Source of the DNA: an uncultured beta proteobacterium
GTDB taxonomy: Bacteria > Pseudomonadota > Gammaproteobacteria > Burkholderiales > Rhodocyclaceae
Direction of reading: 5' to 3'
Length of the DNA: 7,849 nucleotides
Assembly: GCA_903910495.1 (NCBI GenBank)
Contig: CAIVZW010000340.1
Coordinates: 1 to 7,849 of the forward strand
In this document: positions 1,047-7,622 of the stretch, in pieces
Numbering within the stretch: the first letter of the stretch is position 1
Layout of the letters: each line of letters begins with the position of its first letter
Notes under the pieces: model-generated
What the model was told of the DNA's origin: nothing
What the model saw: the letters and a program-made list of their open reading frames with translations, nothing else
The model's database searches: none
Translations under genes and position numbers: made by a program

Positions 1047-1268
1047 TCAACTGTGTCCGAGTTCCAGAAGATCGTCTTCGCTCTGGCTCACTTTGTATGC
1101 CGCATCGATCGCTGCCAGATTGGCTTCGCGTTCGTTGGTCAGGCTTTCCCAAGTCTTGCCGTGGTGTTCTTTCTTGAACCACTCTAAGGTTGCTGTCAGG
1201 CTATCCATCGTGATTCTTCCCGAGGAGCGCGACTTCTGTGGATGGCCGGGGTCGACATTATATTCCAT
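1047..1268 (-). CDS. Small protein of unknown function (73 aa)
   Basis: I do not recognise this protein. It is soluble-looking, with no signal peptide or membrane segment. A polar N-terminal 20 residues rich in Pro, Ser and Lys is followed by a likely helical part (about 21-60, including LTATLEWFKKEHHGKTWESL and NEREANLAAIDAAYK) and an acidic tail (SEDDLLEL). The main argument that it is real is its ribosome binding site: TAGGAGGTA sits seven bases before the ATG, close to perfect complementarity with 16S rRNA. A TATACT box lies just upstream. Met21 is an alternative start with a weaker GGGAAG before it. The gene stands alone between a structured non-coding block and the divergent citrate synthase. 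Nothing beside it suggests a toxin partner or an operon. Confidence 0.6.
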   Translation of the reverse strand: MEYNVDPGHPQKSRSSGRITMDSLTATLEWFKKEHHGKTWESLTNEREANLAAIDAAYKVSQSEDDLLELGHS

Positions 1269-1493: not shown

Positions 1494-2771
1494 ATGGCTA
1501 CGCCGCGAACTGCAAAGCTTACAATCGATGGGAAAACCACCGAATATCCGATCCTGAGTGGAACGCACGGCAACGACGTGATTGACATCCGTGCGCTTAC
1601 TGCAAAGACAGGCCTTTTCGCCTATGACGCAGGCTTTTCGTCGACGGCCAGTTGCGAATCCAAAATTACCTTCATTGGCGGTGACAACGGCGAGTTACTG
1701 TATCGTGGCTATCCCATCGAACAGCTTGCGGAGCACTGTACCTTTCTCGAAGTGGCCTATCTGCTTAAACACGGCGAATTGCCCAATGCCAGAGAAAAGG
1801 AAGAGTTCGAAGGGGTCATCAAGGGGCTCACCATGCTCCACGAACAGATTGTCAAGTTCTACCAGGGTTTTCGTCGTGACGCGCACCCGATGGCGATTAT
1901 GGTCGGGGTTGTCGGAGCACTGTCGGCGTTTTATGATCAAGCAGCGGATTCTTCCAATCCCGAGCATCGAAATATCCGCTTCAATCGGCTGGTCGCCAAA
2001 ATGCCGACGATTGTTGCTTTGGCCTACAAGTATTCGATTGGCGAACCCTTCATGTTCCCGCGCGATGATCTGGGTTATACCGCCAACTTCCTGCACATGA
2101 TGTTCGGTAATCCGTGCGAGAGCTACGAGCCGGATCCGGTCATCGTCCGTGCGCTCGATACGATCTTCCTGCTGCATGCCGATCACGAGCAGAACGCATC
2201 GACGTCCACCGCTCGTCTTGCGGGTTCCTCTGGAGCCAACCCCTATGCCTGTATTTCAGCGGCAATCGGGTGTTTCTGGGGTCCGGCACACGGGGGCGCC
2301 AACGAAGTCTGTCTCAAAATGCTCGAAGAGATTGGCGATGTGTCGCGCATTCCCGAGTACATCAAACGAGCCAAGGACAAGAATGACAGCTTCACGCTGA
2401 AAGGCTTTGGCCATCGAATTGTCAACAGCGCGGATCCGCGTGCCAAGATAATGCGCCAGCTTTGCACCACCGTTTTGCGGGCGCGCGGGATTGAGAATGA
2501 CCGTCTGTTCACGCTGGCCCAGGAGTTGGAAAGAATCGCACTGGAAGACGATTATTTCATTGAACGGAAACTCTTCCCGAATGTTTATTATTACTCGGGT
2601 ATCGTGCAAAAGGCGATCGGCATACCGCCTTCGATGTTCCCCTGCATTGTTGCGCTGGGCCACACGGTGGGCTGGGTGGTGCAGTGGGAAGAAATGATTA
2701 CCGGTTCAGATCAGAAAATCGGTCGCCCACGCCAGCTCTATGTGGGTCACGCGCGACGGGATGTGCCGTAG
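1494..2771 (+). CDS. gltA: Citrate synthase, type II, with altered active site
   Basis: By overall similarity this is a hexameric type II citrate synthase (oxaloacetate + acetyl-CoA to citrate, first step of the TCA cycle, cytoplasm). At 425 residues it is normal length (E. coli GltA 427), with the usual N-terminal strand domain ([14 protein letters not shown]...LYRGYPI). An AGAGGA Shine-Dalgarno seven bases before the ATG fixes the start. Aligned from memory with E. coli GltA, His231 (H229), His266 (H264, GPAHGGAN), His307 (H305, GFGHR), Arg316 (R314) and Arg411 (R407) are kept. The catalytic Asp362 is Tyr365 (PNVYYYSG for PNVDFYSG), Arg387 is His390 (ALGHTVGW for xARTVGW), and the usual VYKNYDPRA after His307 reads IVNSADPRA. 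Asp to Tyr needs one base change (GAT to TAT). The frame is intact, so this is a repurposed paralogue or a recently damaged enzyme. No sdh genes adjoin it. Confidence 0.9.
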
Positions 2772-2806: not shown

Positions 2807-2839
2807 GAAAAGATTACGACCACCCGAAAGTGGCCGTAA
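2807..2839 (-). terminator. Intrinsic terminator downstream of tRNA-Pro
   Basis: Bases 2830-2839 and 2814-2823 form a 10-bp stem with one G-U pair around a six-base loop. On the minus strand it is followed by TCTTTTC, a short T-rich tract. It lies 14 bases past the CCA end of the tRNA gene, the right place to end that transcript. On the plus strand no T-run follows, so it is a weaker stop for the convergent citrate synthase gene. Confidence 0.7.
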
Positions 2840-2853
2840 GTCCTTGAATCTAT

Positions 2854-2930
2854 TGGTCGGGGCGGCGGGATTCGAACTCGCGACCCCTTGCACCCCATGC
2901 AAGTGCGCTACCAGGCTGCGCTACTCCCCG
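2854..2930 (-). tRNA. tRNA-Pro, anticodon GGG
   Basis: The 77-nt minus-strand sequence folds into a full cloverleaf with encoded CCA and discriminator A. It has a D-arm GCGC/GCGC around AGCCTGGTA, an anticodon stem CTTGC/GCAAG with loop ATGGGGT, and a T-loop TTCGAAT. The anticodon at 2896-2894 is GGG, with U33 and G37, so it reads CCC and CCU proline codons. The acceptor starts C1-G72, the unusual pair plus A73 being the identity mark of bacterial tRNA-Pro. Two stem positions do not pair: A6 with G67 in the acceptor and A52 with C62 in the T-stem. It follows merR on the same strand, an arrangement I associate with the pheST-ihfA-merR cluster in betaproteobacteria. Confidence 0.95.
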
Positions 2931-2940
2931 ACAGCTTGAG

Positions 2941-2946
2941 ATTATA
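2941..2946 (-). promoter_or_regulatory. Consensus -10 box for tRNA-Pro
   Basis: TATAAT on the minus strand lies 10 bases before the tRNA 5' end, between merR and the tRNA gene. Transcription would start about 4 bases before the mature tRNA. No good -35 is visible at 16-18 bases. No terminator separates merR from the tRNA, so read-through from the merR operon could also supply it. Confidence 0.55.
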
Positions 2947-2968
2947 ACCCATATCTCATTGGCTTGAC

Positions 2969-3328
2969 TTAGATTCGGAGCATTTCTGCGATGCTGAGCA
3001 GTTCTCCGCGAAGCATTTCGGGCGTAAAAACGGACGGTTTTCTATCGGCAATCGCATCATCCAGACGATTGCGTGCGCCGCTGATTGTGAACCCCTGGCT
3101 GTAGAGTAACTCACGGATACGGCGCACCAGCAGGACTTCATGATGCTGGTAATAACGGCGGTTGCCACGGCGCTTGACCGGTTTGAGCTGGGTGAATTCC
3201 TGTTCCCAATAACGCAGGACATGCGGCTTCACACCGCAGAGTTCGCTGACCTCGCCAATGGTGAAGTAGCGTTTGGCCGGGATGGGCGGCAAAGACTCCT
3301 TGCTGGCGTTTTTAAGACTGGTTTCCAT
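2969..3328 (-). CDS. MerR-family transcriptional regulator
   Basis: This is a 119-residue DNA-binding protein of the MerR superfamily. The N-terminal winged helix-turn-helix is complete: [25 protein letters not shown] at residues 21-45, then the wing RRGNRRYY at 53-60 and a second helical pair ([27 protein letters not shown]). Only about 30 residues follow, with no cysteine pattern or ligand-binding domain, as in the short MerR-like proteins commonly encoded after ihfA; their effector is unknown to me. The ATG lies inside the end of ihfA (17-bp overlap) with no strong Shine-Dalgarno (GAG about 11 bases upstream), so translation is probably coupled to ihfA. Assignment to the superfamily is secure; the regulated genes cannot be told from the sequence. 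Confidence 0.92.
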
Positions 3329-3614
3329 CGTAGGAAAGCTCTACTTCGCCCTTCAACTTCTGACTGGCATGGAAAGTTACGACACGCCGTGCAGTAATCG
3401 GAATTTCCTCGCCGGTTTTCGGATTGCGACCGGGGCGCTGAGGCTTGTCGCGCAACTGGAAGTTGCCAAATCCCGAGAGTTTTACGCCGTCACCACGCTC
3501 AAGCGTGTTACGAATCTCTTCGAAAAAGGCTTCAACCATATCCTTGGCCTCGCGTTTGTTGAGGCCGACTTTTTCGAACAGTAAATCTGAGAGTTCTGCT
3601 TTGGTAAGCGTCAT
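3312..3614 (-). CDS. ihfA: Integration host factor alpha subunit
   Basis: IHF alpha pairs with IHF beta to bind and sharply bend specific DNA sites, acting in nucleoid structure, transcription, replication and site-specific recombination. The 100-residue protein is the usual family length. Its N-terminus [20 protein letters not shown] is typical of IhfA, followed by helix 2, the signature [22 protein letters not shown] (residues 48-69) and the DNA-intercalating proline in the beta-arm (Pro65). A C-terminal helix ends the fold. Its ATG comes 11 bases after the pheT stop, with GGGGA as the likely ribosome binding site. Its stop lies inside merR, so pheT, ihfA and merR look like one transcript. 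Coupling of ihfA to pheST is a classical arrangement in enterobacteria too. Confidence 0.97.
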
Positions 3615-3625
3615 GTTTTTCCCCG

Positions 3626-6001
3626 TCAGGCGCGAAGCTGTACCGCGAAGGCCTGTTGTAAATATTCGACCAGTTGTTGTACAGCGGCGTCAACTTCAGC
3701 GTCTTGCAAAGTCCTTTGAGTATCTTGCATAACTATACGGAATGCAAGACTTTTTTTCCCGGAACCTATTCCTTTTCCGGTGTATACATCAAACAATTTG
3801 ATGTCCTGGATGATGGCTGGTCGATTGGCCTGGATACCGTCCAGAAGCCGTTGCAATTCCAAATCCTGGTCAACCACAATGGCGAGGTCGCGGATGGCCG
3901 ATGGTTGGCGGGAAACTTCTGAATAGTTTGGCAAGCGGGCACGTTTCAGGGCGTCCAGATCAAGCTCGAAGACAACCGGTGCCAGCGGCAGGTCGTACTT
4001 CTGGAGCCATTGCGGATGCAATTCACCGAGCAGGCCGATCGTCTGTCCATCCACCGTCACCAGCGCGCTTCGCCCGGGATGCAGGGCCGGGTGGACCAAC
4101 TTCTCGAAGCGGGCTATGGCTGGCGCGAGCAACTGTTCAACTTCGCCCTTGATATCGAAAAAATCAACAGTGCGCGAAGCGCTTCCCCACTGTTCGGGCA
4201 GGGCGTTGCCATACGCCAGAGCGGCGAGTTTCCAGGGTTGTCTGAAGCCGGCGACGGGCAAGCCTGCGCTGTCACGGAAGAAGCATCGGCCGGTTTCGAA
4301 AACGCGAACCCGGTTTTGCTTGCGCTTGAGATTGGTAGTGACGTTGGCGACCAGGCCGCCAATCAAGGTCGAGCGCATCACGCTCATCTGGCTGGCAATC
4401 GGATTGGCCAGGCGGATTGGCGATTCATTTGCCGCAAAATCGGATTCCCACGCTTCTTCAACGAAAGCGAAATTGACGACCTCCTGATAGCCATGATCAG
4501 CAAGGGTTTGCCGCACCCGGAACAGAGGACGCTCATTCTCGGTTTGCGGCAGCATGGTCAGCGTGGCACGCGGGGCTGGCGCAGGAATATTGTCGTAGCC
4601 ATGCAGGCGGGCAATCTCTTCGATCAGGTCTTCTTCGATCTCGATATCGAAGCGATAGCTCGGCGGGGTAACGAGGAAGTCATCGCCGTCCCGCGTAGAA
4701 GTCAGATCGAGACGGGAGAACAACTCGCCAATCTGCCCGGCAGAAAAAGCCACCCCCAGAACCCTGGCCACCCGCGCCAGACGCAGACGAACAGGCGCTC
4801 TTGCGGGAAGCTCGGCGACCGCTTCGCACAAGGGGCCAGCTTGGCCGCCACAGATCTCAAGAATGAGCTGGCTGGCGCGTTCCAGCGCTCGGCGCGTCCC
4901 GCCAAAATCGACACCACGCTCGAAGCGGTGCGAGGCATCCGAAACGAAGCCGTAGCGACGCGCGCGACCGGCAATCGCCTTGGGGGCAAAGAAGGCCGAT
5001 TCAAGGAACATCTCCTGGGTATCGAGAGTAATCCCACTGTCTTCACCGCCCATGATTCCGGCCATGGCGACGGGGCGTCTGTCGTCGGCGATCAACAGAA
5101 CATCGCCCTGCAGTTCGAGCGTCTGTTCGTTGAGCAGCAGAATCTTCTCGCCGGCATTGGCCATGCGCGCGTGGATGGCGCCTTCGAGTTTCATGTTGTC
5201 GAAGGCATGCAATGGCTGGCCGAGTTCGAGCATCACGTAGTTGGTGATGTCGACGAGGGCGGAGATCGAGCGGATGCCGCTACGCACCAGTCGGCGCTGC
5301 ATCCAGTCGGGTGTGGTCGCACGGGCGTCAACACCGGAGATCACGCGGCCACAGTAGAGCGGGCAGGCTGCCGGGGCGTCAAGCACGATCTCGCGTCTGG
5401 CCGGGATGCTGACGGGGGTCTCGATTACCTCAGGGTAAATCGCTGGCGTGCTGGTCAATGCCGCAACCTCGCGCGCCACGCCGGAGAGTGACAGGCAGTC
5501 GGCGCGGTTCGGAGTGAGTTTCAGCGTCAGCAGGCGGTCGTCGAGATCAAGATAGGCGCGGATGTCTTGGCCAATCGGCGCGTCTGCCGGCAGGACGAGC
5601 AGGCCGGAAGCGTCTTCGGCAATCCCGAGTTCCTTGGCCGAGCAGAGCATGCCTGAGGATTCGACGCCGCGAACCCTGGCGACCTTGATCTTGAAATCGC
5701 CGGGAAGATTGGCGCCGGGCAGGGCGCAAGGCACCTTGAGGCCGGGTGCCACGTTCGGAGCGCCGCAAACAATTTGTTTTGCTTCGCCGCAGCCGATATC
5801 GACGCGGCAGACATTCAGGCGATCGGCGTCAGGGTGCTTGCTGACTTCAAGCACCTGGGCGACGACGATACTGTCGAAATCCGGTGCAACGCTTTCTTCT
5901 TCCTCGACCTCAAGACCAGCCATGGTCAGCAGGTGAGTAAAGGCTTCGCCCGAAATGCTCGGGTTAACAAAACTGCGTAGCCAGGATTCAGAGAATTTCA
6001 T
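3626..6001 (-). CDS. pheT: Phenylalanine-tRNA ligase beta subunit
   Basis: This is the beta chain of the cytoplasmic (alpha-beta)2 phenylalanyl-tRNA synthetase; it binds tRNA-Phe and clears mischarged Tyr-tRNA. The 791 residues match the full bacterial length. Visible in order: N-terminal [18 protein letters not shown]; the OB-fold tRNA-binding domain at about 40-150 ([37 protein letters not shown]); the B3/B4 editing domain at about 210-385 ([35 protein letters not shown]); the B5 domain ([29 protein letters not shown]); the core ([18 protein letters not shown]); and a ferredoxin-like anticodon-binding domain in the last 100 residues ([15 protein letters not shown]...[19 protein letters not shown]). 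It starts 21 bases after pheS with a weak GAAG ribosome binding site, so the two subunits are probably made from one message. No defect is visible. Confidence 0.97.
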
Positions 6002-6022
6002 GGATGATCTTCACAAAAACGG

Positions 6023-7220
<1,198 letters not shown>

Positions 7221-7250
7221 AAAAAAAGGAGGCGCGAGCCTCCCTTTTTT
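7221..7250 (-). terminator. Intrinsic terminator after rplT, bidirectional shape
   Basis: GGAGGC (7228-7233) pairs with GCCTCC (7238-7243) around a GCGA loop. On the minus strand it is followed by seven T residues (7227-7221), 12 bases past the rplT stop. On the plus strand six T residues follow after one C, so the structure could stop transcription both ways. It separates the ribosomal protein operon from pheST, though partial read-through is likely, as known for this cluster in E. coli. Confidence 0.9.
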
Positions 7251-7262
7251 ACACTCGTACAA

Positions 7263-7622
7263 TCAGGCGCCGAGTTGAGCTTTGGCCTGCACGGCCAGAG
7301 CGGCAAATGCGGGCTTGTCGAAAACGGCCAGATCAGCCAGTACCTTGCGGTCAACTTCGATCTGCGCCTTCTTCAGGCCGTTCATGAAGGTGCTGTACTT
7401 CAGGCCGGCTTCACGAGCGGCGGCGTTGATACGGGCAATCCACAGGGCGCGGAACTGACGTTTCCTTTGCCGACGGTCACGATAGGCATACTGGCCGGCT
7501 TTCATCACCGCCTGTTTGGCGATGCGATATACACTCTTGCGGCGACCACGGTAACCCTTGGCCAGTGCAATGATTTTCTTGTGGCGCGCGCGCGCCGTTA
7601 CACCACGTTTAACTCGGGGCAT
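7263..7622 (-). CDS. rplT: 50S ribosomal protein L20
   Basis: L20 binds 23S rRNA early in assembly of the large ribosomal subunit. The 119 residues match the family length almost exactly. It has the very basic extended N-terminus [39 protein letters not shown], then [39 protein letters not shown] and the globular C-terminal half ending in AKAQLGA. The start is set by AAGGAG seven bases upstream, which overlaps the rpmI stop codon, so translation is tightly linked to rpmI. In E. coli L20 represses its own operon by binding the infC-rpmI message; that target would lie mostly beyond the right edge of the window here. The gene ends at the intrinsic terminator. Confidence 0.98.

Follow-up and report, generated by a model that had tools for sequence, protein, structure and literature searches.

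The window analysed here, that is, the whole 7,849-nucleotide stretch of DNA from an uncultured member of the Rhodocyclaceae, encodes a protein which we label GltA2-YH and which is, on sequence evidence, a lineage-specific type II citrate synthase paralogue of a Propionivibrio-like group within that family. Alignments and trees show a predicted active site whose acetyl-CoA side (the equivalents of Asp362, Phe383, Lys309 and Arg387 of the Escherichia coli enzyme, with two flanking loops) was replaced once within the gltA2 branch, and a protein which has kept the fold and the equivalents of His264, His305, Arg314 and Arg407 and which, in each of the 22 members found, is still full length and under constraint. 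That citrate synthesis has been lost, and that the protein survives as a pseudoenzyme or regulator that binds a ligand, perhaps in assemblies with the ordinary GltA1, is a proposition to which we give even weight for and against.

Active-site residues of the window protein and its clade

The gene, a gltA2-type citrate synthase homologue identified by its open reading frame, by TIGR01798 and by clade membership, occupies 1494..2771 on the forward strand and translates to 425 amino acids with zero stops, as the preliminary description of this DNA had reported. Its product scores 675.5 bits against TIGR01798 (cit_synth_I), for which the cut-off is 485.15, over residues 14-424, and has the citrate synthase fold in a confident predicted model (pLDDT 89.7); an earlier AF2 model, made from a 19-sequence alignment, reached a pLDDT of 53.4 and was set aside.

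Aligned with HMMER to GltA of E. coli (4g6b), the protein gave the pairings proposed earlier, in which Asp362 corresponds to Tyr365 (TAT, 2586-2588) and Arg387 to His390 (CAC, 2661-2663), and in which His266 (2289..2291), His307 (2412..2414), Arg316 (2439..2441) and Arg411 (2724..2726) are retained as the equivalents of His264, His305, Arg314 and Arg407. The same alignment contains two active-site replacements that the preliminary description did not include: Phe383 to Val386 (GTT, 2649..2651), and Lys309 to Asn311 (AAC, 2424-2426), the latter as part of a change from Lys309-Asn310 to Asn311-Ser312 (2424..2429) in the loop after His305. The catalytic triad is thus incomplete, with both histidines there and the aspartate absent, as is the arginine set, in which Arg314 and Arg407 are retained and Arg387 is a histidine; the phenylalanine that lies against the acetyl group is missing, with valine instead.

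We take Lys309 to match Arg324 of the pig enzyme, which binds the CoA phosphate, Asp362 to correspond to Asp375 in vertebrate citrate synthase, and Arg314, Arg387 and Arg407 to hold the substrate carboxylates, Arg407 acting across the dimer and Arg387 being a ligand of oxaloacetate. In the excerpted text of PMC11167817, Asp362 of E. coli citrate synthase is a catalytic residue, Phe383 contacts the acetyl group, and kcat falls by 97% with F383A and by 93% with F383M. The acetyl-CoA proton is abstracted by Asp375 in the vertebrate enzyme (PMC5830745, in extract), and H306 in E. coli numbering, which is His305 counted with the start Met, is reported to be critical for oxaloacetate binding (PMC7083601, in extract). 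Considered with these cited and presumed roles, the replaced residues imply that acetyl-CoA binding and proton abstraction would be lost and that the oxo-acid site would be partly retained. The earlier proposal that normal catalysis is lost or strongly changed is most likely correct and gains further strength from the concurrent loss of Phe383 and Lys309; the loss of Arg387 may weaken oxo-acid binding too.

The replacements are shared by a set of database proteins. We searched 5.8 billion proteins with the window protein and then with two alignments, and inspected 205 distinct proteins, the window's included. A deviation at the equivalents of 362 and/or 387 was present in 24 of these, and 22 combined an aromatic residue at 365 with a residue other than arginine at 390 (19 Tyr/His, 1 Tyr/Leu, 1 Tyr/Asn and 1 Phe/His, again with the window included). 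Single changes were seen in P0030 (named Thauera mechernichensis; Asn at Asp362, Arg387 intact) and P0104 (His at Arg387, Asp362 intact), both otherwise ordinary enzymes, and may be isolated mutations or errors. The 22 proteins are 425-447 amino acids long and share 69.0 to 96.5% pairwise identity (mean 78.5%). The 21 database members derive from lgn, ena, jgi and ncbi, come without organism name or genomic context and are inferred to be metagenomic; three (P0014, P0065 and P0122) carry the source name 'citrate synthase'. Among the matches listed, the variant is seen only in the window and these 21 proteins, and further members may exist since each protein search scored about 8,000 matches and listed the best 120. 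The clade protein P0004 and the ordinary GltA1 P0161 each have a longest contig of 22,156 bases and NCBI among their sources, and may lie on one contig, which would demonstrate coexistence.

Residues were compared between the 22 clade rows and 7 Asp/Arg gltA2, 35 gltA1 and 47 other rows, with P0034 left out. In window numbering, position 365 is Tyr in 21 of the 22 and Phe in one; position 390 is His in 20, Leu in one and Asn in one; and position 386 is Val in 12 and Ile in 10, where all 89 rows outside the clade have Phe. The equivalent of Lys309 is replaced in every member (Asn 14, Ser 4, Arg 2, Asp 1, His 1). Lys303 (2400..2402), directly before the GFGHR loop, is lysine in 22/22 and methionine in 81 of the 82 gltA1 and other rows, and the clade-specific Pro379 (21/22) and Pro383 (22/22), encoded within 2628..2642, are threonine in 81/89 and 88/89 of the remaining rows. 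The equivalents of His264, His305, Arg306, Arg314, Arg407 and Arg409 and both HADH histidines are invariant in all 22. Two members, P0065 and P0151, have GPAHAG rather than GPAHGG at the His264 motif (position 267).

When a clade-separating column was defined as one in which the residues of the 22 are present in less than 3% of the 89 other rows, eight columns qualified (303, 311, 312, 365, 379, 383, 386 and 390). All eight fall within 303-312 and 365-390, that is, the His305 loop and the Asp362-to-Arg387 segment, which together make up 36 of 425 residues, with boundaries set after the result had been seen. In the alignment such a concentration is unlike random decay. Positions 365 and 390 appear to need no single chemistry, since one member has Phe at the former and two have Leu or Asn at the latter. 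At the NADH site, the positions of which we take to be 110, 145, 163, 167, 189 and 206, the clade keeps Lys167 in 22/22, Tyr145 and Arg163 in 21/22, Cys206 in 19/22, Asn189 in 10/22 and His110 in 7/22.

Phylogeny, relatives and genomic surroundings

Trees were built with both columns 365 and 390 masked: a 96-row quick tree, a 107-row quick tree and a 107-row careful tree with 200 bootstraps, L020, L013, L014, L015 and P0034 being dropped before both 107-row trees. The 22 lie on one side of a branch in both quick trees (SH-aLRT 99 in each), and in the careful tree the Tyr/His and equivalent forms make one clade (bootstrap/SH-aLRT 100/99), recovered in 200/200 bootstrap trees. A larger clade of 29 rows (100/91, careful tree) unites the 22 with seven Asp/Arg gltA2 sequences, namely P0019, P0028, P0054, P0124, P0125 (named Propionivibrio sp.), P0177 and L114 (from genome G326); some of its inner forks are weaker (95/70, 97/79 and 100/91). 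The seven form a grade rather than a group, which makes Asp/Arg the older state and the replacement a single event.

Together with 35 rows of ordinary gltA from the same group, these 29 rows make a 64-row clade (100/99). The 35 gltA1 rows make up one fork (SH-aLRT 83) in the 107-row quick tree but not in the 96-row or careful tree, and because the branching order of gltA1 and gltA2 differs between trees, duplication is not separable from transfer between close relatives. Since the 22 nest among Asp/Arg gltA2 sequences and G326 has both gltA types, the gltA2 branch came first, whether through duplication or through transfer between close relatives, and the loss of Asp and Arg second.

The nearest genome to the window was identified with PheT (3626-6001, reverse strand), which matches the PheT of G358 at 94% identity and those of the next five among 395 family genomes searched at 82-83%; the window from 2837 to 7479 aligns to G358 at 91.6% DNA identity. 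G358 has an ordinary Asp/Arg gltA (L111), which in L140 has same-strand neighbours that, by length and order, would be sdhE and sdhB to one side and sucA to the other; P0021 is this same gltA1, with zero branch lengths in the 107-row trees. Among the 16 genomes with the closest PheT, 15 have an ordinary gltA, at 72-76% identity to the window protein, and all 22 citrate synthase matches in those 16 genomes carry Asp and Arg. From these close relatives we infer that the window's organism would have gltA1 as well.

G326 has both types on different contigs, an intact gltA1 (L127) and the Asp/Arg gltA2 L114 (contig C182), the latter broken by an in-frame TAG at codon 118. Paralogue status is demonstrated for L114 only, and for the other six Asp/Arg gltA2 sequences it follows from tree placement. 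On C182 (L191 / L114) a 338-residue transposase-like ORF adjoins this gltA2, and by its motif we take it to be IS1595-like. gltA2 was placed in one of 28 genomes of the genus of G358 (G326), several of which are incomplete and three of which gave no match. One genus copy outside the tree, L120 of G367, is nearest to gltA1 rows, with 94% identity to L119.

The variant was also sought as a DNA pattern for P[N/S]V-Y-[F/Y]YSG, and with Phe allowed for Tyr. It was found in 0/395 family genomes, 0/28 genomes of the genus of G358 and 0/399 order genomes; these sets overlap, and those for the family and the order each sample a larger group. As controls, the variant pattern finds the window and the Asp form finds 25 of the 28 genus genomes. 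The best 80 of 588 genome loci (85 alignment rows) have Asp, Phe and Arg at all three positions. The best listed plasmid match to the window protein is 62.5% identical, and no relative was confirmed in the viral contigs searched. Among the matches listed from open-licence PMC literature, no natural citrate synthase without this aspartate is described.

DNA similarity to relatives covers the pheS-pheT-ihfA-merR side of the window and stops at about 2837, just past the 3' end of a tRNA-Pro(GGG) gene (2854..2930, reverse strand) on its gltA2 side. The gltA2 side is not common to the contig of G358, which ends 372 bases past tRNA-Pro; those bases (L081 1-372, at the end of G358 C123) are unlike the window and contain repeated CCGTACCGC motifs. 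The single ORFs that neighbour tRNA-Pro in nine relatives are mutually dissimilar, one being an rve transposase (L142), and no phage-type integrase was found among the nine, two of which have no Pfam match. No k-mer of at least 10 bases from 2821-2930 recurs in 1-2815. A mobile island at tRNA-Pro was considered and rejected, and the boundary is taken only as a variable junction.

Upstream of gltA2, a 92-residue forward ORF (583-861) matches profile positions 395-423 of 423 of TctA, under the curated cut-off, and is probably a remnant of the C-terminal end of this tripartite tricarboxylate transporter protein. A UPF0114/TIGR00645 membrane protein, by profile match, is encoded at 1-564 on the forward strand; the DNA of this stretch is 87% identical to part of G326 C161 and 81% to part of G173 C131. 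In neither genome is this the contig that carries pheT, so the left flank has a different arrangement in both. A 73-residue frame (1047-1268, reverse strand), divergent from gltA2 and with an AGGAGG-like ribosome binding site, had no Pfam match with an approximate query containing two wrong letters.

Constraint and alternative explanations

Rates were taken from the clade part of the 107-row quick tree as parsimony changes per site, with 178 sites classed as conserved (at least 98% in the 89 other rows), 145 as intermediate and 96 as variable. The clade has 0.78, 2.31 and 4.41 changes per site in these classes, and gltA1 has 0.04, 1.24 and 5.21. Zero change is seen in the clade at 121 of the 178 conserved sites, with a clade mean of about 2.1 changes per site, and His228, His231, His266, His307, Arg308, Arg316, Arg411 and Arg413 have 0 changes on the clade tree. 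Mean root-to-tip lengths are 1.00 for the clade, 0.30 for gltA1 and 0.35 for the Asp/Arg gltA2. Since conserved sites have 0.78 changes and variable sites 4.41, the clade is, by this measure, still under clear constraint, less than gltA1, and evolving about three times faster, a rate that could come partly from relaxed constraint. Because databases and the length limits of the searches favour full-length proteins, intactness alone is weak evidence, and the site pattern is stronger. The idea of a repurposed paralogue, raised before these comparisons, gains from a group that is of single origin, old, full length in 22/22, constrained and nested among gltA2 sequences.

As we picture it, GltA2-YH would no longer condense acetyl-CoA and oxaloacetate, its retained residues would still bind oxaloacetate or a similar oxo-acid, the Tyr or Phe at 365 would fill the space of the acetyl group, and the protein would serve as a non-catalytic regulator or sensor. 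Most plausibly it would do so by joining the cell's own ordinary GltA1 in an assembly and altering the activity or allostery of that enzyme. Only tentatively do we go on to propose a natural pseudoenzyme with its acetyl-CoA half-site stripped, acting as a subunit that senses oxaloacetate or citrate, joins active GltA1 in one assembly and tunes entry to the TCA cycle. We favour a ligand-binding role without catalysis: a new reaction dependent on the hydroxyl of Tyr or the ring of His would hardly allow Phe at 365, or Leu or Asn at 390. Counting against it are the drift of some residues of the presumed NADH site (His110 7/22, Asn189 10/22), the 0/28 result for the motif in the genus of G358 and the only gltA1/gltA2 pair seen, that of G326, in which gltA2 is without the replacements and has an in-frame TAG.

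An enzyme with a new substrate, which the retained His264, His305 and Arg314 would fit just as well, is the main rival to the pseudoenzyme reading, and we regard it as possible, if clearly short of even. Here a reshaped pocket would take another acyl-CoA or a non-CoA partner and use His264, His305 and the oxo-acid site; the clustered, near-fixed replacements (Lys303 and Pro383 in 22/22, Pro379 in 21/22) resemble such reshaping more than decay, and the His/Arg set is invariant in the clade. Yet tolerance of Phe at 365 and of Leu or Asn at 390 means that neither position gives a group which every member needs, the usual base for acyl-CoA deprotonation is absent, the loop Lys309 varies among Asn, Ser, Arg, Asp and His, and only the TctA-like fragment among the window's neighbours hints at a substrate. 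That the gene is a duplicate in decay, under relaxed constraint and now without a function, its replacements inherited from one early inactivated ancestor, is unlikely. Decay would account for a rate about three times that of gltA1, the TAG in the Asp/Arg gltA2 of G326 suggests that gltA2 can be lost, and gltA2 was placed in only that one of the 28 genus genomes (several incomplete, three without a match); it fits poorly with 22 proteins of 425-447 amino acids (though databases and length limits favour intact genes), with 121 of 178 ordinarily invariant sites unchanged despite a mean of about 2.1 changes per site, and with clade-defining replacements that cluster in the active site.

That the protein is a working citrate synthase after all, making citrate with the help of compensating residues, is more doubtful still. 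The TIGR01798 cut-off is passed by a wide margin and His264, His305 and Arg314 are retained, but Asp362, Phe383 and Arg387 are lost together, the first a catalytic residue and the second one at which changes alone cost 93-97% of kcat (PMC11167817, in extract), and Asp, Phe and Arg occupy these positions in every one of the best 80 of 588 genome loci. Two of the possibilities raised in the preliminary description, very recent inactivation and an error of sequencing or assembly in the window, are ruled out by the 22-member clade: the same or equivalent replacements recur in 21 other proteins, at 69-96% pairwise identity, together with correlated changes elsewhere in the protein. The step from Asp to Tyr is one base change, and nothing else favours an error, the probability of which we consider negligible.

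Comparison with known citrate synthases

Few metabolic enzymes are as conserved as citrate synthase. Within this known family the clade is, judged by the open-licence literature matches listed, new as a conserved subfamily of single origin without the catalytic aspartate. Compared with type II GltA (TIGR01798) of E. coli (4g6b), Acetobacter aceti (2h12), Vibrio vulnificus (4e6y), Pseudomonas aeruginosa (6zu0) and Burkholderia thailandensis (4xgh), the whole clade has Asp362, Phe383, Lys309 and Arg387 and neighbouring loop residues replaced. Its closest relatives on the tree are the Asp/Arg gltA2 sequences of the same group, from which it differs in that all seven of these keep Asp362, Phe383, Lys309 and Arg387.

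With its acetyl-CoA side lost and most of its oxo-acid side kept, the clade would be a natural counterpart of active-site mutagenesis. It also carries a warning for annotation, as the window protein passes the family cut-off easily and three members bear the name 'citrate synthase'. As has been suggested for CitA of Caulobacter crescentus, the fold of a central enzyme may be recruited as a metabolite sensor or an inactive partner subunit, and the clade would provide a test of this. CitA is, by analogy, a precedent for a citrate synthase function independent of catalysis: according to the excerpted text of PMC7083601, its inactive H303A and H303W forms keep cell-cycle control. The likeness to GltA2-YH would lie in the use of a citrate synthase for regulation and in the presence of separate citrate synthase paralogues in the genome, whereas CitA is itself active and its inactive forms, H303A and H303W, are engineered and not natural (PMC7083601, same extract).
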